DNA of 64,000 bases from contig NZ_LT629969.1 of assembly GCF_900104665.1 (NCBI RefSeq), positions 1 to 64,000 on the forward strand, written 5' to 3'. This document shows, piece after piece, positions 52,792 to 62,407 of the stretch. The position numbers and the translations under genes are program-made. Each line of letters opens with the position of its first letter. The first letter of the stretch is position 1. The DNA is from Traorella massiliensis (lineage in GTDB: Bacteria; Bacillota_I; Bacilli_A; Erysipelotrichales; Erysipelotrichaceae). Under the pieces are notes generated by a model. It saw only the letters and a list, made by a program, of their open reading frames with translations, ran no database searches and was not told the DNA's origin.

Positions 52792-53781
52792 TTATTCTTT
52801 TACTTGATTCATCATTTGAAAATACTGTTCATATTCACTTTCAGGAATATTCAATAACTTCATGGCTTCCTGTAAATCAATCTTCATATTCTTCATCAAT
52901 GAACATAAAGATGAATAAATTCCTTGCTCAATTCCTTGTTCTATTCCTTGTTCTATTCCTTGCTCAATTCCTTGCTCAATTCCTTGCTCAATTCCTTTTT
53001 CTATTCCCTGCTCAAATCCTCTTTTTAATCCTTTCTCCATGTATTTCTGTTCTAGATAAACGCTATAGTCACACATCTCTTCTACCTCCTCTGCTAGGCT
53101 TTCTGTCAGCTTAAAATCATATTTTTTTAGTTCCTCTTTTTTCTTTGCTGCTGTCATGCTCTCATCAAGCAAGATCCTTAACACATTGGATGAAATCGAT
53201 TCGTTTTCCTCATACCCTAAGTATAGCACAATGATCTCTTGTTTATCAAAATATTTCTCATCTTCGCACACATTTCCCAGTATGTGCTCCTCTCTCATCC
53301 GATAGCGGTTGATGCATCCCTGCTTGTACAAGGGTGCATTGAACACGATCCAGATTGATACGACCTTTACGATATCGTCATATTGTCCATGGTCAAAGAA
53401 TTTCCCTACCTGCATAGAAATATTTCTGCTGGTATAATAATTTCCTCTGCTCAGCACATGGCTTTTTCCTTTTAAAACGCCTTGTGCCTCAAGATTGATA
53501 ATCATAGCGATCTTTCCATGATCCTGTGGTAAAGAGGCATAGACAAGAGAATCAAAATAAATGCTTCTATAATCCTCGTTGTTTTCATTTCGGTGCCCCG
53601 GTGTCAGGCGGCTATGTAAAGGTACATCTCCTTGAGGTTCGATACATTGTTCGATTTCCCTCAAAGAGTAGGGACTATATTCCTCAATAAGTTCCTTCAT
53701 GAGAACAGAAAGAACAGGTTTTTCTCTTAGGATTATCTTGATGATTTGATCGATAGGGATTTTATTTTTTTTAATCTTCAT
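52792..53781 (-). CDS. Rpn-family PD-(D/E)XK nuclease/transposase-like protein with EQGI repeats
   Basis: 329 residues. Same layout as the gene at 33822: IYFDSLVYAS, IINLEAQGVLKGKSH, NISMQVGKFFDH, KVVSIWIVFNAP, EEHILGNVCEDEKYFDKQ. The C-terminal part has a run of EQGI repeats encoded by a 12-bp tandem repeat. GGAGG lies in the loop of a short GAATA/TATTC hairpin before the ATG. Complete copy. Role unknown. Confidence 0.88.
   Translation of the reverse strand: MKIKKNKIPIDQIIKIILREKPVLSVLMKELIEEYSPYSLREIEQCIEPQGDVPLHSRLTPGHRNENNEDYRSIYFDSLVYASLPQDHGKIAMIINLEAQGVLKGKSHVLSRGNYYTSRNISMQVGKFFDHGQYDDIVKVVSIWIVFNAPLYKQGCINRYRMREEHILGNVCEDEKYFDKQEIIVLYLGYEENESISSNVLRILLDESMTAAKKKEELKKYDFKLTESLAEEVEEMCDYSVYLEQKYMEKGLKRGFEQGIEKGIEQGIEQGIEQGIEQGIEQGIEQGIYSSLCSLMKNMKIDLQEAMKLLNIPESEYEQYFQMMNQVKE
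52919..53038. repeat. 12-bp tandem repeat inside the Rpn gene
   Basis: About ten units of 12 bp with consensus ATTCCTTGCTCA (plus strand), the last ones degenerate. Each unit encodes EQGI or a variant on the minus strand. Because the unit is a multiple of three, slippage changes protein length without a frameshift. Confidence 0.85.
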
Positions 53782-54013: not shown

Positions 54014-54060
54014 ATTCAGCCGAAAAATTGATATACATTCTAAAATTACTGCACTAGAAT
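54014..54060 (+). promoter_or_regulatory. Regulator box 1 (ATTCAGCCGAAAA) and -10 of peptide gene
   Basis: ATTCAGCCGAAAA (54014-54026), a near-palindrome around TTCAGCCGAA, is 41 bp before TAGAAT (54055-54060). GCACTAGA at 54051 is also found after box 2. The same box occurs at 55596 and 57444 and nowhere else that I saw in the window. Confidence 0.65.
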
Positions 54061-54082
54061 AATTAAAAATGGAGGAATATTT

Positions 54083-54289
54083 ATGAAAAAATTATTTATT
54101 TTATTAACAACTTGTGCATTTGTATTTGCACTAATACCCATAAAAGCCCAAGAACCTGAAACGGAAGTATGTGTTCTAGAATACAATGAAGATGGAACCA
54201 TCAAAAATGAAGAGGAATATCTTCAATGCTTAGAAGAGATGGGGCAGGTGGATACTCATGATGGCAAGTGGAATAAACCTAAAGGATAA
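54083..54289 (+). CDS. Secreted 68-residue pre-peptide, candidate signal
   Basis: A signal peptide (KKLFILLTTCAFVFALIPIKA) is followed by about 46 polar residues with two Cys (30 and 49) and the C-terminal GQVDTHDGKWNKPKG. AATGGAGG is well placed before the ATG. Its position directly before an HTH-TPR regulator is that of PapR, SHP and NprX-type signalling peptides. The active form could be a C-terminal fragment. Signalling is inferred, not shown. Confidence 0.7.
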   Translation: MKKLFILLTTCAFVFALIPIKAQEPETEVCVLEYNEDGTIKNEEEYLQCLEEMGQVDTHDGKWNKPKG

Positions 54290-54306
54290 ATAAAATGGGA
54301 GATATA

Positions 54307-55563
54307 ATGAAACAAATGAGTAATCTGTATAATGAACAAATTCTAATAGGAAAAATATTAAATGTTGAAAGGAAAAGCAGAGATATTAGATTACAGGATT
54401 TAACTGCATCGGGAAAAACGATTCAGTATATTTCTGAAATTGAGAATGGGAATAAAAAAATATATGAACCAACAATTTCAAAATTGTTTTCATTAATTGG
54501 AATTGATTTTAACTATAATCAAACAACATTAGATGAAGTTTATGTATTATTTGAGGAAATGATCCATGTTTATCTTAATCAGGATCTAAAAAAGCGAAAA
54601 GAATATATGGTGAAACTTACCAGCAATTCTGCTTGGGAGTTTTCCTATGCCTACCCTTTAATACAACTAACTAAATTTATGGCAACTGTTCTAGATGAAA
54701 TTGATTTTTTTTATGATGATATTAATGCAAAGTGTGAAGAGTTATTTACTATTTTTAATAATCACGAAAAAAGTATATATTTACTTATGAAAGCAATATA
54801 TGAATTTTATGATCTGGGAAAATTTGAATTGGCTAAAGATAATCTGAAAAAATCAATTCAATATTCGCCTGAAGCAGCCATTACTGGTTTTACTTACAAT
54901 CAATTAGGAAATTTAATAACTCTTGATTATCATTTAAGTATGGCTTTAGAATATCAAAAAAAAGGTATAGAAATACTAAAAAAGTACGGTTATTATCGAA
55001 GGTCTATTCAATTGGAATTAACGGTTGGGAATATTTTAGCTGAGTTAAGAAGATTTGATGAAATGAAACAGCAATATCTGAAAACCTATGATTTTGCGAT
55101 TACATATAATAATGATGATATCAAACGAAAATCTTTATATAATTTAGCTTATTATTCAATGTATGGAAGACGTTATGAGGATGCAATTACATATGCAAAT
55201 CAAGTAATTAAGATGAATTATTACCTTACAGAATGTTATTATATTCTCGCATGGGTGTACATGGAAATGGGAGATAATGTAAATTTTGAAAAATATTATC
55301 ATTATTTAGAAAAAACAAATAAACATGATGATTATATTATTGATCATTATGAAAAGTGTTTAAAAGCAAAATTAAATAATAAAGATAAGACATATTATAA
55401 GACACTTGTTGATCTATATAAGAAGTTAAATAAAAAGGGCTATGCTTTTGATCGGGTCATGGCACTTGAATATATTATTGAATATTGCGATCAATACGAA
55501 TTAATCAATGAAGGATATATGTATCAAAAAGAATTATTAAAAATTCTTCAAAAAAAACATTAA
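54307..55563 (+). CDS. Rgg/PlcR-like regulator (HTH plus TPR repeats)
   Basis: 418 residues. N-terminal HTH-like part (about 8-70: ILNVERKSRDIRLQDLTASG, QYISEIENGNKKIYEPTISK) and some nine helix pairs of TPR type, with NQLGNLITLDYHLSMALEYQKKGIEILKK as a clear repeat. This is the RRNPP architecture, whose TPR part binds short peptides. GGGAG lies before ATG 54307. It follows the secreted peptide gene by 17 bases. It probably binds the ATTCAGCCGAA boxes. Confidence 0.8.
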   Translation: MKQMSNLYNEQILIGKILNVERKSRDIRLQDLTASGKTIQYISEIENGNKKIYEPTISKLFSLIGIDFNYNQTTLDEVYVLFEEMIHVYLNQDLKKRKEYMVKLTSNSAWEFSYAYPLIQLTKFMATVLDEIDFFYDDINAKCEELFTIFNNHEKSIYLLMKAIYEFYDLGKFELAKDNLKKSIQYSPEAAITGFTYNQLGNLITLDYHLSMALEYQKKGIEILKKYGYYRRSIQLELTVGNILAELRRFDEMKQQYLKTYDFAITYNNDDIKRKSLYNLAYYSMYGRRYEDAITYANQVIKMNYYLTECYYILAWVYMEMGDNVNFEKYYHYLEKTNKHDDYIIDHYEKCLKAKLNNKDKTYYKTLVDLYKKLNKKGYAFDRVMALEYIIEYCDQYELINEGYMYQKELLKILQKKH

Positions 55564-55595
55564 TTTTATGGTGTTTTTCTAGAAAATGTAGCTTT

Positions 55596-55648
55596 ATTCA
55601 GCCGAAAAGAGAATTATCACGCACTAGATAAATAAATACTATTATAAA
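55596..55648 (+). promoter_or_regulatory. Regulator box 2 and -10 before the ABC exporter
   Basis: ATTCAGCCGAAAA (55596-55608), followed by GCACTAGA (55621) and TATTAT (55640-55645), 44 bp from the box start. Same order as at box 1, with the GCACTAGA 12 bp nearer to the box. Confidence 0.6.
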
Positions 55649-55687
55649 TACTAAAATATACGATGATATTAAATGGGGTAAGAATAT

Positions 55688-57301
55688 ATGTTTAAGAAAA
55701 TAGAAAAAGAAATAAGAAAATATGCATGGATTGCAGGAGCATTATTTTTACTGAGTCATACAGTAAATCTTATTACACCGACGATCATGCAGTATGTTGT
55801 TGATGAAGGTATAGCAAATCAAAATATTAATCAGATCATATTAGGTATCTTATCTTTTGTTCTGATACCTTGTATTTTTGTTTTGATTACTTCTCTTTTT
55901 AATTATGTAACGATCGTTTTTGCCAGAAATAAAGGGAATGAATATTCTATAGATCTTATGAGGCATCTGTTGTCACAACCATTATCTTTTTTCGACAAAG
56001 AAAATTCAATTGAATTAATGACCCATTCTGGACGTGAAATATCGAAATATCTGAATTTCAAGATTAGTGATATTCCGAAATATTATGTGACAATTGTCAT
56101 TTCAGTTTTTCTTTTAGTCATTTTATGCTTTTATCATCCATTACTGGCAATATTACAGCTATGCTTTATTCCATTAGGTATTTTCCCAGTAAGAAAATTT
56201 CAGAAAATAGTTAATGATAAAGTGATGAAAGTAATGGAATATAACGCTTCTATGAATCAGTCAAAGGCGGATACTTTTCAGGCTGTTGCTTTTGTGAAAA
56301 GCAATCAGCTGGAAGAAAAAAGAATTGAAGATATCAATCATATCAATCAGAAGATCGTAAAGCTATGGGGACAGGTTGCTTTGCTTGATTCTTTGAGTGG
56401 CATGTGGATGAGTGGTTTTGTAACCTCTTTATTTACGGGAATGAGTTTTGGGCTTATTGCTTATTTGATTGTTTCAAAGATTCATCTTTTCAGTTATGGA
56501 GAGATGTTTTCGATCATGAGTTATTGTGCTTTATTATATAGTGGTTTCTGTACAATTTTTATGACACAACTGCAGAAAACGAAGATTGAAAGTGAATTTA
56601 CTAAGACATTTAGTTATTTTGACCAGCTTTCTGAAAGAAAACAGTTGGAGAAAGTTGAAATCAAAGATAAAATCGTATTTGATCACGTTGATTTTGCTTA
56701 TAATGAAGAAGTCAAGGTCTTAGATGATTTTTCATGGACATTTGAAATGAATAAATGGAATGGGATCGAAGGAGAAAGCGGAAAAGGAAAAAGTACGATT
56801 CTAAAGCTTATTGAAAAATTTTATGATATTGATAAGGGAGATATTTTGATAGATGGAACATCGATTTCTAGAATCTCTACTGAATCTCTATATTCACAGA
56901 TTACTTATGTAGCCCAGAAACCTTCCTTATTTCCGATGACTATCCGTGAAAATCTTTATCTTGGTAAAAATAATGCCAGTGATGAAGAGATTAAAGAAGT
57001 TTTAGAAGCTGTAGGACTTTATGATGCGATTATGGCATTACCTCAAAGTTTAGAGAGTGATATCAAGGAAGCGGGCAAGCTTTTATCAGGTGGACAGCAG
57101 CAACGTCTTAGTATAGCAATCGCTTTATTAAGAAATACCAAGATTTATTTACTGGATGAAATCTGTGCAAATGTAGATAAAGAAAACGCTGAAAAAATAC
57201 GTCAGTATTTTGCGGATATGGTAAAAAAGGGAGTAACAATCATTAGTGTAAGTCATGATCATGCTTTTCATAAAGAAGTAGATTCCCTTTTAAAGTTATA
57301 A
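55688..57301 (+). CDS. ABC exporter, fused membrane and ATPase domains
   Basis: 537 residues. Six membrane segments (about 12-285) and a nucleotide-binding domain with Walker A GESGKGKST, VAQKPSLFP, LLSGGQQQRLSIAIALL, YLLDEICANVD and VSHDH. No C39 peptidase domain, so it would not trim a leader itself. The box upstream links it to the peptide regulator. It may export a peptide or give immunity. Substrate unknown. Confidence 0.88.
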   Translation: MFKKIEKEIRKYAWIAGALFLLSHTVNLITPTIMQYVVDEGIANQNINQIILGILSFVLIPCIFVLITSLFNYVTIVFARNKGNEYSIDLMRHLLSQPLSFFDKENSIELMTHSGREISKYLNFKISDIPKYYVTIVISVFLLVILCFYHPLLAILQLCFIPLGIFPVRKFQKIVNDKVMKVMEYNASMNQSKADTFQAVAFVKSNQLEEKRIEDINHINQKIVKLWGQVALLDSLSGMWMSGFVTSLFTGMSFGLIAYLIVSKIHLFSYGEMFSIMSYCALLYSGFCTIFMTQLQKTKIESEFTKTFSYFDQLSERKQLEKVEIKDKIVFDHVDFAYNEEVKVLDDFSWTFEMNKWNGIEGESGKGKSTILKLIEKFYDIDKGDILIDGTSISRISTESLYSQITYVAQKPSLFPMTIRENLYLGKNNASDEEIKEVLEAVGLYDAIMALPQSLESDIKEAGKLLSGGQQQRLSIAIALLRNTKIYLLDEICANVDKENAEKIRQYFADMVKKGVTIISVSHDHAFHKEVDSLLKL

Positions 57302-57320
57302 TAAGATTATAAATATTTAT

Positions 57321-57350
57321 AAAGCATTTTCTAGATGAAGATGCTTTTTA
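57321..57350 (+). terminator. Terminator of the ABC exporter gene
   Basis: An 11-bp stem with one T-G pair (57321-57331 with 57337-57347), loop TAGAT, then T run. Confidence 0.75.
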
Positions 57351-57443
57351 TTATAAAATATTTAGAAAATAAATATGGATCATTGGTTAAATTATGTAGT
57401 AATTATATAGTAAAGAAATAAGAATATTCATTTTATATTGAAA

Positions 57444-57491
57444 ATTCAGCCGAATAAAATGTTTACAAAAAAATATGAAAACGATTATAAT
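57444..57491 (+). promoter_or_regulatory. Regulator box 3 and -10 before the 28-residue ORF and Vex-like genes
   Basis: ATTCAGCCGAA (57444-57454) is 42 bp before TATAAT (57486-57491). No -35 is present. The spacing agrees with boxes 1 and 2. Confidence 0.65.
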
Positions 57492-57546
57492 GATTTTGAA
57501 AAATAAACTCATATTAAGATATATTAGATAAAATGAGGGATTGGGG

Positions 57547-57633
57547 ATGCTTGAATTTTATCTATATATTGGAGTTTGGGAGGATAGAGCAATGATTGAA
57601 CCAGTAACAACAGAGGATAAAGTTAATGCTTAA
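57547..57633 (+). CDS. 28-residue ORF, candidate peptide
   Basis: GAGGGATTGGGG precedes ATG 57547. The product begins MLEFYLYIGVWEDRAM and ends in a polar EPVTTEDKVNA. A second possible start is ATG 57592 after GGGAGG, giving only 13 residues (MIEPVTTEDKVNA). It is the first ORF after box 3 and before a permease-ATPase-permease set, the same relative place as Pep27 before vex123 in pneumococcus. No sequence likeness to Pep27. Confidence 0.4.
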   Translation: MLEFYLYIGVWEDRAMIEPVTTEDKVNA

Positions 57634-57727: not shown

Positions 57728-59095
57728 ATGACATTAGTTAAAAGAATCATACTTAGTATCACTCGAAGGCCAATAAAAAGCCTATTACTGCTCGTTTTAT
57801 CATTTGCATTAGGTACTTTTATTGGTTCTTCTTATTTGATTAGTAGGGCAGTAAATGGATTGGAAACAAATATCAAAGATAATTTAGATACTTATGTTGT
57901 TATAAGCTATAAAGATATAGATGAATATAAAAATTTAAATAATTTAGAGTATAAAGATAATCAAAATAAATTTTTAGAGAAATATAATGAAATCTCAATG
58001 AAAGAATATGTTGATAATAGCAGCCTTCTTCAATATACAAAGTATACTTCTTTTTCTTCGTGGAATAGTAATATAAGCCACCCTTCAATTAGTTTTTTTG
58101 TGGATTATTTAAAATATTCTGTATCAATTATGGGAACAGACTTACTGTTTTTTGATTTTTATGAAGAAACTATTGATATAGTAGAAGGAAGATGTATTAA
58201 CAAAGAAGATATTGAGAATCAAAGATATGTAACCATCATTGATAAAGATTATACTTATCCTGATGGTTCGGAAATTCAAATTGGAGATATAGTAAAAGTA
58301 GAATATAATAAATTTGATCTTGAAACTGATGGAACTGTTACGCAATTAAATTCTTTGGAATATGAATTTGAAGTAATCGGAAAATATGAAATGAAAGATA
58401 TTGGACGTAATAAATTTTTAGATGAAACATATCTTATGTATCCGTTATTTATTCCAAATAATCTTTTTAGTCAAATAAAAAATGAAATAGAAACTACCAA
58501 TTTAAATAAAAATTTAAACTATGAAAATAACACTTTTATTTATTTAAATGCTTTATTTAAGCTTGATTCTGTAGACTCAATAGAAGATTTTAGAAATGAT
58601 TATTTAAGACTTTTTAATGATAGTGATCATTATGAAGCAATAACAACTGGAGATGAATATTATTATGATATAAAAGGCAGTTTAGATAATATGTCCATGA
58701 TTTCTAGTGTTACAATGTTCATTGCGGGGGTTACAAGTATCTTTATTGGTACATTGATAATTTATCTATATTTGAAAGATCGAACAAAAGAAATCGGGAT
58801 ATTGATATCGATGGGTGAATATAAGAAAAAGATTATAATTCAACTTGTTTGTGAAGTTGCGATATTGGGATTGATCGGTTTATCTTTATCACTTATTGCA
58901 AGCAGCATATTAGGAAATGTGATCATGGATCATGGATTAAATATACCTTCTGCAATAATAGAAGATTATTCAGTAAATATTGATATCATTTATATCTTTT
59001 GTATGTATGGTATCGGTGCTGTAGTGATAATAATTTCAAGTATCATCCCTGTTTGGCATCTTCTTAAATCCAGGCCAAAAGATATTTTGTTGTAG
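57728..59095 (+). CDS. FtsX/MacB-type ABC permease 1 (Vex1-like)
   Basis: 455 residues. One N-terminal membrane segment (about 17-38), an outside domain of about 270 residues, then three segments (about 325-347, 370-395, 420-445) in an FtsX domain, with EIGILISMGEYKKKIIIQLV at the typical loop. GGGAG lies before the ATG. It is followed by an ATPase and a second permease of the same plan. Substrate unknown. Confidence 0.85.
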   Translation: MTLVKRIILSITRRPIKSLLLLVLSFALGTFIGSSYLISRAVNGLETNIKDNLDTYVVISYKDIDEYKNLNNLEYKDNQNKFLEKYNEISMKEYVDNSSLLQYTKYTSFSSWNSNISHPSISFFVDYLKYSVSIMGTDLLFFDFYEETIDIVEGRCINKEDIENQRYVTIIDKDYTYPDGSEIQIGDIVKVEYNKFDLETDGTVTQLNSLEYEFEVIGKYEMKDIGRNKFLDETYLMYPLFIPNNLFSQIKNEIETTNLNKNLNYENNTFIYLNALFKLDSVDSIEDFRNDYLRLFNDSDHYEAITTGDEYYYDIKGSLDNMSMISSVTMFIAGVTSIFIGTLIIYLYLKDRTKEIGILISMGEYKKKIIIQLVCEVAILGLIGLSLSLIASSILGNVIMDHGLNIPSAIIEDYSVNIDIIYIFCMYGIGAVVIIISSIIPVWHLLKSRPKDILL

Positions 59096-59105
59096 GAGAA
59101 AAACT

Positions 59106-59783
59106 ATGAAAATATTAGAAACAAAAAATTTATCATTTGCATATAAAGATGGCGAACAAAACCGACAAATTTTAAACAATGTCAATACTTCTTTCGAAAC
59201 GGGTGTATTTTATACTATTCTTGGTGCATCTGGATCAGGAAAATCAACTTTTTTATCACTTATCGGTGCTTTAGAGATTCCTCAGCAAGGGTGTATTGAA
59301 TATATGGGTAAAAATATTAATGATATAGGATTGGATAAATATCGACGCAAAAATATTGCGCTAATCTTTCAAAATTATAATCTGATTACCTATATGACAG
59401 CTATAGAGAATGTATTACTTGCGATGTCGATCAGTAAGGAATCAGCTAAAATTGAAAATAAAGAAGCCTATCACTATTTAAGTCAGGTAGGAATAGATCA
59501 TTCTAAAGCAAATCGCCTCGTCACCAAATTGAGTGGCGGAGAACAGCAGCGAGTTGCAATTGCAAGAGCTTTAAGTACAGATGTAGATATTATTATCGCA
59601 GATGAACCAACAGGGAATGTCGATCAGCAGACGAGCAGGCAAATTGTAGAGATCTTTAAAAACTTAGCCCATAATGAAAATAAATGTATTATTGTAGTGA
59701 CTCACTCTAAAGAAGTTTCTGATGAATCTGATGTTGTTTTGTTTCTTGACACATCGATTCAAAACTTTGTTATTCAAGTATGA
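59106..59783 (+). CDS. MacB/LolD-type ABC ATP-binding protein (Vex2-like)
   Basis: 225 residues. Walker A GASGSGKST, LIFQNYNLITYMTA, LSGGEQQRVAIARAL, IIIADEPTGNVD and VTHS are complete. Ten bases after permease 1, and it overlaps permease 2 by ATGA, so the three form one transporter. Confidence 0.93.
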   Translation: MKILETKNLSFAYKDGEQNRQILNNVNTSFETGVFYTILGASGSGKSTFLSLIGALEIPQQGCIEYMGKNINDIGLDKYRRKNIALIFQNYNLITYMTAIENVLLAMSISKESAKIENKEAYHYLSQVGIDHSKANRLVTKLSGGEQQRVAIARALSTDVDIIIADEPTGNVDQQTSRQIVEIFKNLAHNENKCIIVVTHSKEVSDESDVVLFLDTSIQNFVIQV

Positions 59784-61189
59784 GCTTCGTAAAAAGATTA
59801 TGGCTAAGTATTACAAGAAGATTGACAAAGTCGGTTATTTTATTTCTTATTGTTTTTTTACTAGGAAATGTTTTATGTGCCTCCATTGCTATCGCAACAT
59901 CATTAGGGGCTCTACAGAAAAGTTTTATGACTCAATTAGGTCTTAAAATAGATATTGTACAGGATGAACAAGATAATTATCTGGATTATGAAGCTATTAA
60001 GGAGAGTATTGATGGTTTATTAGACAATATCAATAGTATGGCTAAGAAAAATTATTTTCAGTATAATGATGCACAATTTTTAATGACGGGATTCATTTCA
60101 GAAAATCTGTCCTTTTCAAATAAGTATCTGACAAATCAGTTTTGTGACAAGCCGGGTTCACTATATTTATATGGTGTAAGTGAGTCACAGTTTGTAGATG
60201 CTAATGAAAAAATTGTAGAAATCATTGAGGGCAGATATTTTACAGAGGAAGAAATCACTCATGCGGAAAATGTTATTTTATTAAGTGATAAGTTTACTTA
60301 TAAACAGGATGAAATTAAACCAGGTGATGTCATTCAGTTAGAACGTGTAATCTATGATGCTAAACTTAATGAATTTTATCGAGAATCTGTAAACTATACG
60401 GTTGTAGGTATCTTTTCTAAAGTGCAAACATTAGTAAATCATGATAGTTATGATATAAATAATTATGAAACATATGTTTATCTTCCTTCTACAACTTTAT
60501 TTAATGAATATAGTACAATGAAAAACTTGTATCAACAATATCAAGGAGCTACTGATTTTACAAATATACAATTAAAACATATAAAATTAAAACTCAAGCA
60601 TATAAACTTAAAAGAATCATTTGAAAAATCATTAGATATGAAAAATCCATTGCTTGCGAAAAATATGAGTGGGAAATCATTATATATTATAAATACCAGT
60701 GAAGATTTATATCAAAAATTAGCAGTACCACTAAAATCACTCGAAAATATAGCTTTCTTCCTAAGAATGTCATCATCTGTAGGTGTTACAGTATTATTAG
60801 GATTAAGTGTATTTATTTTTTTGAAAGATAGAAGATATGAAATTGGAATTTTATATTCAATGGGACAAAGGAAAGTGAAGATCATTACCCAAATTCTTTT
60901 AGAAGTCTTAATCATTGGGATGAGTGCAATTACACTTGCGATGTTTAGTGGTCAAAAAATTGGTGATATGTATGCTGAAAAGATTGTTCAAAATGAAATT
61001 GAAGCAAATCAATATGTTTACATTGATGGTTATTCGCAAAAAGAATTATTGGAGGAGTATGATGTAGAATTTAGTGTTTCATATATCATAAATATATACA
61101 TAAGTGGTTTTACAATTATTTGTGTGTGTTCTGTTATACCAATAGCATATATCTTAAAATTAAATCCTAAAAAAAATCTGCTTCAATAA
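59780..61189 (+). CDS. FtsX/MacB-type ABC permease 2 (Vex3-like)
   Basis: 469 residues with the same plan as permease 1: an N-terminal segment (about 15-38), a large outside domain, and three C-terminal segments, with EIGILYSMGQRKVKIITQIL as the FtsX loop. The starts of the two permeases are similar (RLWLSITRRLTKSVILFLIVF against RIILSITRRPIKSLLLLVLSF), which suggests an old duplication. ATG 59780 overlaps the ATPase stop. Confidence 0.85.
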   Translation: MSFVKRLWLSITRRLTKSVILFLIVFLLGNVLCASIAIATSLGALQKSFMTQLGLKIDIVQDEQDNYLDYEAIKESIDGLLDNINSMAKKNYFQYNDAQFLMTGFISENLSFSNKYLTNQFCDKPGSLYLYGVSESQFVDANEKIVEIIEGRYFTEEEITHAENVILLSDKFTYKQDEIKPGDVIQLERVIYDAKLNEFYRESVNYTVVGIFSKVQTLVNHDSYDINNYETYVYLPSTTLFNEYSTMKNLYQQYQGATDFTNIQLKHIKLKLKHINLKESFEKSLDMKNPLLAKNMSGKSLYIINTSEDLYQKLAVPLKSLENIAFFLRMSSSVGVTVLLGLSVFIFLKDRRYEIGILYSMGQRKVKIITQILLEVLIIGMSAITLAMFSGQKIGDMYAEKIVQNEIEANQYVYIDGYSQKELLEEYDVEFSVSYIINIYISGFTIICVCSVIPIAYILKLNPKKNLLQ

Positions 61190-61296: not shown

Positions 61297-61878
61297 ATGA
61301 AAAAGAAGTATATATTTATAAGTATAGTTATAATATTATTATTTTCATGTGGCTATTATTATTTACAATTTAATAGGGAAATTGAAAATATAGAGTTTAG
61401 TTACAATGGGATTAATGGGGTAACATTTGAATATGAATTAGATACAAACTTAAATTGTAGATTAGAGAATAAAGAAACTATTTTTAATGGCGATACTGTA
61501 AATTTTGAATGTTCTGATCCATACTTATCTTTTATTAAGGAAAATGTTAAGTTTGAAATTACAGATCTATTTAGTAATGAAATCAATTTGGATGTAATAA
61601 AAAAATCTAGTATCGTAATGGATTCTGAGATGGTTTATATAAATGATGGAGACTATATAAGTATTTATATTTTGGATCAGCAAGATACTGAGAGTTATCA
61701 GGCACGATTATATGAAAATTTATATGTTAATAACGATAAGCTAATACAATATGTAGATGATGATATGATTAGTGATGTTCATGAAATGAAAAAAGTCCAA
61801 ATAGATCATATTGCAAATGAATATTTATCAGATTATATAACTCTTTTTGAAAATCAAGGGTTTCAACGCATGAAATAA
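61297..61878 (+). CDS. Membrane-anchored extracytoplasmic protein
   Basis: 193 residues. An N-terminal hydrophobic segment (YIFISIVIILLFSCGYYYL) that could be an anchor, or a lipoprotein signal ending at Cys18 (the lipobox is poor). The rest is outside, rich in Asp, Asn and Ile. No known domain seen. AGGAG stands about 14 bases before the ATG. Lies between the Vex-like set and a lipoprotein. Confidence 0.7.
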   Translation: MKKKYIFISIVIILLFSCGYYYLQFNREIENIEFSYNGINGVTFEYELDTNLNCRLENKETIFNGDTVNFECSDPYLSFIKENVKFEITDLFSNEINLDVIKKSSIVMDSEMVYINDGDYISIYILDQQDTESYQARLYENLYVNNDKLIQYVDDDMISDVHEMKKVQIDHIANEYLSDYITLFENQGFQRMK

Positions 61879-61921
61879 TGTTAGATCATTATATAGGAAT
61901 AATGAAGGGGAGGAGTTGATT

Positions 61922-62407
61922 ATGAAAAGAATATTACTTATTATCGTAGTGCTTTTATCAGGCTGTGTTGAAAAATCGAATATATCGTTGGATCATGTGT
62001 TATCTGTGATTCAAAGTGAGGATTATGAGGGTGTGGGTGAATATGTATATGAACCAACAACGTCTGATTCATTTACTTTTACAACATCAGAGGAAGAAAA
62101 TGATATGTTTGCTTTGCCAAATGATGAGGTTGTGAAAGCTATTGAAGAATTTAAAACGCAGTTAATGGCAGTATTAGATGAAACAGAGTATACATCTATA
62201 GACATAGATAAGAGCAAGACTCCAATAAATGATTTGTTTCTTAATTTTAAATATAGTGAAGATGGTAATGAGGTTGTAGTTCAGTTTTTTAGAGATGGTT
62301 ATCTGAGTATTTCTGGTTATGGAGAAAATGCAATGTATCAGTTTGATGAAGATACTGTGTCAAAGATCGTTGATTTATATGATGATTATACAGACAAGGT
62401 TCAGTAA
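61922..62407 (+). CDS. Putative lipoprotein
   Basis: 161 residues. Signal MKRILLIIVVLLSGC with lipobox LLSGC. The exposed part is acidic, with an FTTSEEEND stretch and an aromatic C-terminal third. GGGGAGGAG precedes ATG 61922; the TTG six bases earlier is less likely. Function unknown. A terminator follows. Confidence 0.75.
   Translation: MKRILLIIVVLLSGCVEKSNISLDHVLSVIQSEDYEGVGEYVYEPTTSDSFTFTTSEEENDMFALPNDEVVKAIEEFKTQLMAVLDETEYTSIDIDKSKTPINDLFLNFKYSEDGNEVVVQFFRDGYLSISGYGENAMYQFDEDTVSKIVDLYDDYTDKVQ

Follow-up and report, generated by a model that had tools for sequence, protein, structure and literature searches.

Peptide receptors of the RRNPPA families are split into five-TPR and nine-TPR (tetratricopeptide repeat) folds (PMC12700828). 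Among the described pairs of propeptide and receptor, TprA/PhrA of Streptococcus pneumoniae has links to CcpA/cre and to a gene cluster for a lantibiotic (PMC6753895), with TprA placed in the five-TPR clan (PMC12700828), and the validated reference RRNPP propeptides are 21–50 aa long (PMC10075063). The locus described here lies in the first 64 kb of contig NZ_LT629969.1 of Traorella massiliensis (hereafter the window; source genome G000, 2.6 Mb). It encodes a 68-residue pre-peptide and a regulator with helix-turn-helix (HTH) and TPR domains, and three of its promoters share one box, ATTCAGCCGAA. It is likely that this locus is a chromosomal peptide quorum-sensing system of the RRNPP type, working by the mechanism proposed below.

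The closest likeness is to NprR/NprX, where a receptor with HTH and nine TPRs also adjoins a secreted propeptide, and both the profile and the fold comparison match. On the other hand, identity is about 12% over the fold alignment, the operator is another one, as is the bacterial family, and the propeptide is longer here (68 aa), with a conserved two-cysteine core that is not described for the reference propeptides. TprA/PhrA is similar in that the pair is linked to an antimicrobial-type cluster and, here by a cre-like sequence, to CcpA/cre; however, TprA is a PlcR-type five-TPR receptor, whereas the cargo of the present locus consists of transporters and its CcpA control is at most suggested by the cre-like sequence. 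The system is a new one of an already known kind, and its propeptide is unusual. In the literature searched, RRNPP was never named together with Erysipelotrich- in one paper. The elements of the signalling unit are the following:

54014..54024, + strand: box 1, ATTCAGCCGAA, with the dyad TTCrGCyGAA; -10 TAGAAT at 54055-54060, -35 weak
54083..54289, + strand: pre-peptide, 68 aa, with Sec signal, acidic two-cysteine core and variable tail MGQVDTHDGKWNKPKG, the candidate pheromone region
54307..55563, + strand: receptor/regulator, HTH and nine TPRs, 418 aa; alternative ATG at 54295
55596..55606, + strand: box 2, ATTCAGCCGAA; -10 TATTAT at 55640-55645
57444..57454, + strand: box 3, ATTCAGCCGAA; TTTACA at 57462-57467 and TATAAT at 57486-57491

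Four further genomes of the genus (G001, G002, G003 and G004) were used for comparison. The pre-peptide occurs in five known copies, two in G001 and single ones in G000, G002 and G003. Each has KK or RK at its start, then a hydrophobic segment, and a cut site of the form x-x-A (IKA, VKA, VLA, VHA or TYA), cleavage of the copy in the window being predicted after IKA, residue 22. The mature part has 45–48 residues and a charge of -7 to -13 throughout, and the two cysteines are spaced exactly 19 residues in every copy. The core CVLEYNEDGTIKNEEEYLKCLE is almost invariant in G000, G002 and G003, and the last 16–17 residues vary, ending in K-G or K-K. The gene stands directly ahead of the receptor gene in four of the five genus genomes and again in the second pair of G001, and G004 lacks the pre-peptide/receptor system. 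In the window, the two genes are 5–17 bp apart on the same strand. A search of 395 genomes from the class gave no relatives at 1e-5, and outside the genus the family gave weak partial matches only, mostly to signal peptides of long open reading frames (ORFs).

Of the four other genomes of the genus, three encode a relative of the regulator (54% identity in G002, 38% in G003 and 32% in G001). Its Pfam matches to HTH_3 and TPR are weak. The AlphaFold2 model from eleven family sequences (pLDDT 91.4) contains N-terminal HTH helices followed by 18 helices that form nine TPRs. In the VIA-align fold comparison, the first 20 rows were all Rap, NprR or AimR (Z 20.6–26.3), and a seven-sequence profile of the regulator matched NprR at profile positions 109–415 (E 1.4e-8) and also Rap105/RapF. 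The structures of Rgg, PlcR, ComR and PrgX were absent among the 50 fold matches listed, and the regulator may still be kin to them. The architecture of HTH and nine TPRs is that of the NprR subfamily, with Rap and AimR scoring similarly.

All five features of the published RRNPP signature (PMC10075063) are present at the locus. The propeptide is small (68 aa, for a range of 10–100 aa), the sequence features of Sec secretion occur in all five copies, and pre-peptide and receptor genes are adjacent in all five; the receptor length of 418 aa falls within 250–500 aa, and the nine TPRs of the model have Rap, NprR and AimR as their best solved folds. The first-pass annotation had described an HTH-TPR regulator of the RRNPP kind next to a secreted 68-residue peptide, which agrees with the conservation of both genes and with the fold and profile matches.

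The same annotation had placed identical boxes 41–44 bp before the -10 of three promoters, and this was confirmed in both respects. Exact copies of ATTCAGCCGAA start at 54014, 55596 and 57444, all on the + strand within 3.4 kb and each ahead of a gene unit, and the distance from box start to -10 is 41, 44 and 42 bp, respectively, so that the -10 hexamers begin 30, 33 and 31 bp past the boxes. This places the box at about -43 to -52, immediately before the -35. The -35 hexamers of promoters 1 and 2 are poor, and the core of promoter 3 is near consensus (TTTACA-18-TATAAT, 11/12 matches). Apart from ATTCAGCCGAA, no 11-mer of the window with 5 or more G/C reaches three copies within 4 kb once tandem and clustered low-complexity repeats are set aside, and 30 Markov-shuffled windows yielded no such 11-mer. 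The genome-wide motif search proposed with the annotation gave four exact copies in G000; the single one outside the island lies within the coding sequence of an unrelated response regulator and was discarded as an operator.

Dyads occur at the same three places in G002, G003 and G001, namely before the pre-peptide, just past the regulator and 120–140 bp further, with box 1 conserved in loci L016, L017 and L018. Over the genomes, the consensus is the near-palindrome wTCnGCnGAw. The boxes of G002 and G003 retain TTCrGCyGAA, and those of G001, the most distant of the three, have changed letters (ATCAGCAGAw): ATCTGCTGAT, ATCAGCAGAA and ATCAGCAGAA. A -10 with at least five matches is found 29–34 bp past the box at 9 of 12 sites, compared with 16% of positions in this intergenic DNA, the 12 sites spanning four genomes and including orthologous sites that are not independent. 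The three-promoter box is thus very probably a genuine operator, judging from its sequence context. The predicted recognition helix reads QYIS[ED]IENG in G000 and G002, where the box is identical, and QYLHEIEKG in G001, where the box is changed. This joint change is the best non-experimental evidence that the regulator would bind the box.

Comparison of G000 with G002 revealed a diverged block in the middle of the unit. At the DNA level, the flanking genes show an identity of about 0.9, and the stretch that starts at promoter 1 and ends with the pre-peptide core one of about 0.8–0.87. Identity then falls to 0.46–0.70 from the tail to about receptor codon 290 and returns to about 0.8. At the protein level, it is 97% for the core, 38% for the tail (aa 53–68), 43% for receptor residues 1–290, 78% for residues 291–418 and 93–99% for the flanking genes. 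This pattern is as would be expected for a changing signal and its binding domain. In the agr system of staphylococci, which has a hypervariable signal/receptor specificity block, the peptide is a cyclic thiolactone and the sensor a membrane histidine kinase. The likeness to it is one of analogy only, in that signal and sensor parts diverge jointly between conserved flanks; AgrB, AgrC and AgrA were not found at this locus. Tentatively, and with more doubt than confidence, the pair may represent an undescribed Traorella RRNPP subfamily, in which a conserved secreted scaffold, possibly closed by a disulfide, would carry the pheromone, and tail and receptor would be swapped between lineages as a specificity cassette (pherotypes), with a constant operator and interchangeable cargo of the bacteriocin type.

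From these features we infer the processing and import of the signal, its active form, binding of the boxes, the sign of control and what the cargo does, as follows. The pre-peptide would be secreted via Sec and cut by signal peptidase I, and a short peptide out of the variable C-terminal tail would build up outside the cell. An oligopeptide permease would re-import it, the two OppA-type binding proteins encoded in the G000 genome being candidate importers, and the peptide would then bind the TPR domain of the receptor encoded by the adjacent gene. Through its HTH, this receptor would bind the dyad wTCnGCnGAw upstream of the -35 at the three promoters and most likely activate them. Promoter 1 would yield more peptide and receptor in a positive feedback, and promoters 2 and 3 would drive exchangeable cargo, here an ATP-binding cassette (ABC) exporter and an operon for an FtsX-type ABC transporter, of the kind found beside bacteriocin-like genes.

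Several observations weigh against this interpretation. Concerning the signal, the pre-peptide of 68 aa is beyond the validated propeptide lengths, and conservation is highest in its core, not in the putative signal tail. Concerning the receptor, the HTH match is under the Pfam cut-off (E 0.004), and the TPR protein LGN follows next in the fold list (Z 20.5), the fold alone not being decisive. The diverged block takes in the HTH too, the silent-site counts are small (27 vs. 14 sites), and the G000–G002 data could not separate recombination from diversifying selection. Finally, box 2 is kept in G002, G003 and G001 without an obvious gene behind it, and the near-consensus core of promoter 3 could act without an activator or be repressed.

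The same circuit with the opposite sign, the receptor repressing at the boxes and the peptide relieving it as in the repressor-type members, is unlikely but deserves to be taken seriously. The strong core of promoter 3 suits repression, and the RRNPP class includes both activators and repressors. Nevertheless, the box does not cover the core promoter but precedes the -35 at near-fixed spacing, and since promoters 1 and 2 also have a poor -35, activation is favoured. If the 68-residue protein were instead a secreted effector, such as a small acidic disulfide protein or a bacteriocin, and the TPR regulator responded to another cue, the length of the protein, its core being more conserved than its tail and its two invariant cysteines, which suggest a folded secreted domain, would be accounted for. 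This explanation is improbable in view of the position directly before the receptor gene in every copy, the joint variation of tail and receptor, and the strongly acidic character, which most bacteriocins do not share.

Two further explanations concern the boxes. They could be the operator of a transcription factor encoded elsewhere, the HTH-TPR protein acting at other sites or by protein contact; trans-acting repressors and activators are common, and the HTH differs at many positions between G000 and G002 with the box unchanged. A local regulator is argued for because the only exact box outside the island is within a coding sequence; in addition, boxes and receptor gene occur together in four genomes, and in G001 the box letters shift with the recognition helix, which makes a factor acting in trans very improbable. 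As for a functionless chance or repeat-derived coincidence, the 10-bp core TTCAGCyGAA does occur 7–22 times per strand in each genus genome (15–38 strand hits per genome, including G004, which lacks the system). Since this core alone is unspecific, operator counting was limited to clustered, promoter-placed copies. The clustering, the promoter spacing and the fact that the three sites are conserved in syntenic position in three other genomes speak against coincidence, which was rejected on genome-wide copy count, shuffles and conservation and has a practically negligible chance of being correct.

The preferred reading, a pheromone pair acting through the three boxes, leaves the genes behind promoters 2 and 3 to be considered. 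The features downstream of the regulator are as follows:

55688..57301, + strand: ABCB-type half-exporter, 537 aa, membrane domain and ATPase without peptidase domain; cargo
57321..57347, + strand: terminator-like hairpin past the exporter
57508..57580, + strand: predicted leader RNA hairpin; one is predicted in G002 too, its stem sequence largely different
57592..57633, + strand: tiny ORF MIEPVTTEDKVNA, 13 residues, behind GGGAGG; ATG at 57592, the 28-residue ORF 57547-57633 being an in-frame extension
57728..59095, + strand: FtsX/MacB-type permease 1; cargo
59106..59783, + strand: ABC ATPase, best NCBIfam match TIGR03608, under cut-off; cargo
59780..61189, + strand: FtsX/MacB-type permease 2; cargo
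61297..62407, + strand: two genes, 193 aa membrane-anchored and 161 aa lipoprotein-like; island membership uncertain

In G000, promoter 2 precedes the half-exporter and promoter 3 the FtsX–ATPase–FtsX set, the ATPase scoring 189.7 bits against TIGR03608 (lactococcin-972-type exporter ATPase; cut-off 254.85). In G002, no clear gene stands at box 2, and box 3 is followed by genes for an ABC ATPase and for two secreted proteins rich in cysteine; the latter (L016 511-1248) are tandem paralogues with identical signal peptides and a weak zinc-ribbon match only. A remnant of a cysteine-rich secreted protein and two ABC/permease proteins follow in G001, and no such cargo genes were found behind the boxes of G003. 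Judged by gene content, exporter and FtsX transporter are exchangeable cargo. The exporter is absent at this locus in three relatives that keep signal, receptor and box 2. Since the signal also has its own Sec leader, the exporter is not needed for its export, and a service of the exporter to the signal is not supported; since box 2 is kept in these relatives, it does not serve solely to drive the exporter. The cargo output is most likely export of, or protection from, peptide antibiotics.

At other loci in the family, related regulators and transporters adjoin bacteriocin-type genes. A relative in G013 is adjoined by a weak match to bacteriocin-associated membrane proteins and one in G052 by an ABC exporter. 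In G004 (L115, contig C24, 2139-6871), two overlapping ORFs, apparently a frameshifted TPR regulator with the HTH recognized by eye only, lie directly before an FtsX–FtsX–ATPase set. In G000 itself (L114, contig C6, 5386-11697), a paralogous FtsX/ATPase/FtsX set (first permease 37%) is split by an inserted transposase-like ORF and adjoins genes for two secreted proteins, one C39-peptidase-like and the other 154 aa long. The second pre-peptide/HTH-TPR pair of G001 (L069, contig C9, 7850-12779) is divergent to a 30-residue precursor-like ORF, MSKLIRRSSQNKNGLTTSCANLVHCAFFVH, flanked by the inverted repeat ATAGCGGTTTGATT and accompanied by a radical-SAM/SPASM enzyme and an ABC exporter. This is likely a peptide-antibiotic cluster under peptide control, and no convincing box common to both promoters of this pair was found.

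The third box had been assigned to a 28-residue ORF and a Vex-like operon. A box does precede this unit, but the ORF is probably mis-started and has 13 residues. After the hairpin (z -2.0 in G000 and -2.9 in G002), GGGAGG and a 13-codon ORF follow in both genomes (MIEPVTTEDKVNA and MMEPGIVEDKVRT), and in a third copy, MIEPVKLKHAY in G088 with no receptor nearby, an in-frame stop rules out the longer reading. The 28-residue ORF was therefore rejected as a Pep27-like peptide, the conserved frame being that of 13 aa. The arrangement of GGGAGG and an 11–13-codon ORF (M[IM]EP...) is found at 57508-57633, L016 1375-1314 and L074 5843-5898, with a hairpin ahead in two genomes. A cre-like site lies over the -10 before this ORF in three genomes (57471-57491, TGAAAACGATTATA; L016, about 1467-1450; L074, 5807-5822), matching TGWAANCGNTNWCA at 13–14 of 14 positions as judged by eye, and catabolite (CcpA) control of this promoter is possible.

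Vex123-Pep27-VncRS of S. pneumoniae shares the order FtsX permease–ATPase–FtsX permease and a nearby tiny ORF. In contrast, the tiny ORF here is unrelated in sequence as far as known, the trio is not conserved with the island, and no VncRS-like two-component system was seen in the ORF list of 50.5–64 kb, read by eye, so that the designation as a Pep27/Vex-type operon was abandoned. The wider proposal, a quorum-sensing circuit driving its signal, an exporter and an effector transporter, is thus supported for an RRNPP-type pair in one operon with a shared, conserved operator, and is not supported for a Vex-type operon or for an exporter that serves the signal.

The island is preceded by metK and an aldo/keto reductase gene, named from their translations. 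ORF 52792-53781 has a weak Rpn-type nuclease/putative transposase match (TIGR01784, below cut-off) and a tandem IEQG repeat close to its C-terminus; since it is not at the corresponding place in G002, it was probably inserted between the reductase gene and the island. No Rfam families were found in the island, no relatives among plasmids, phages and viral contigs, and no related locus in a genome contig collection searched with the regulator. PADLOC matches of the ABC ATPases were rejected as defence genes, reflecting only general ATPase similarity.

With operator, receptor and signal region defined, the locus is a candidate that can be tested. It may give a handle to switch on silent bacteriocin-like genes, the second G001 pair adjoining a radical-SAM peptide cluster. 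Erysipelotrichaceae are frequent in the gut, and if the diverged block sets specificity, related gut strains would be different pherotypes, as is the case for agr in staphylococci.

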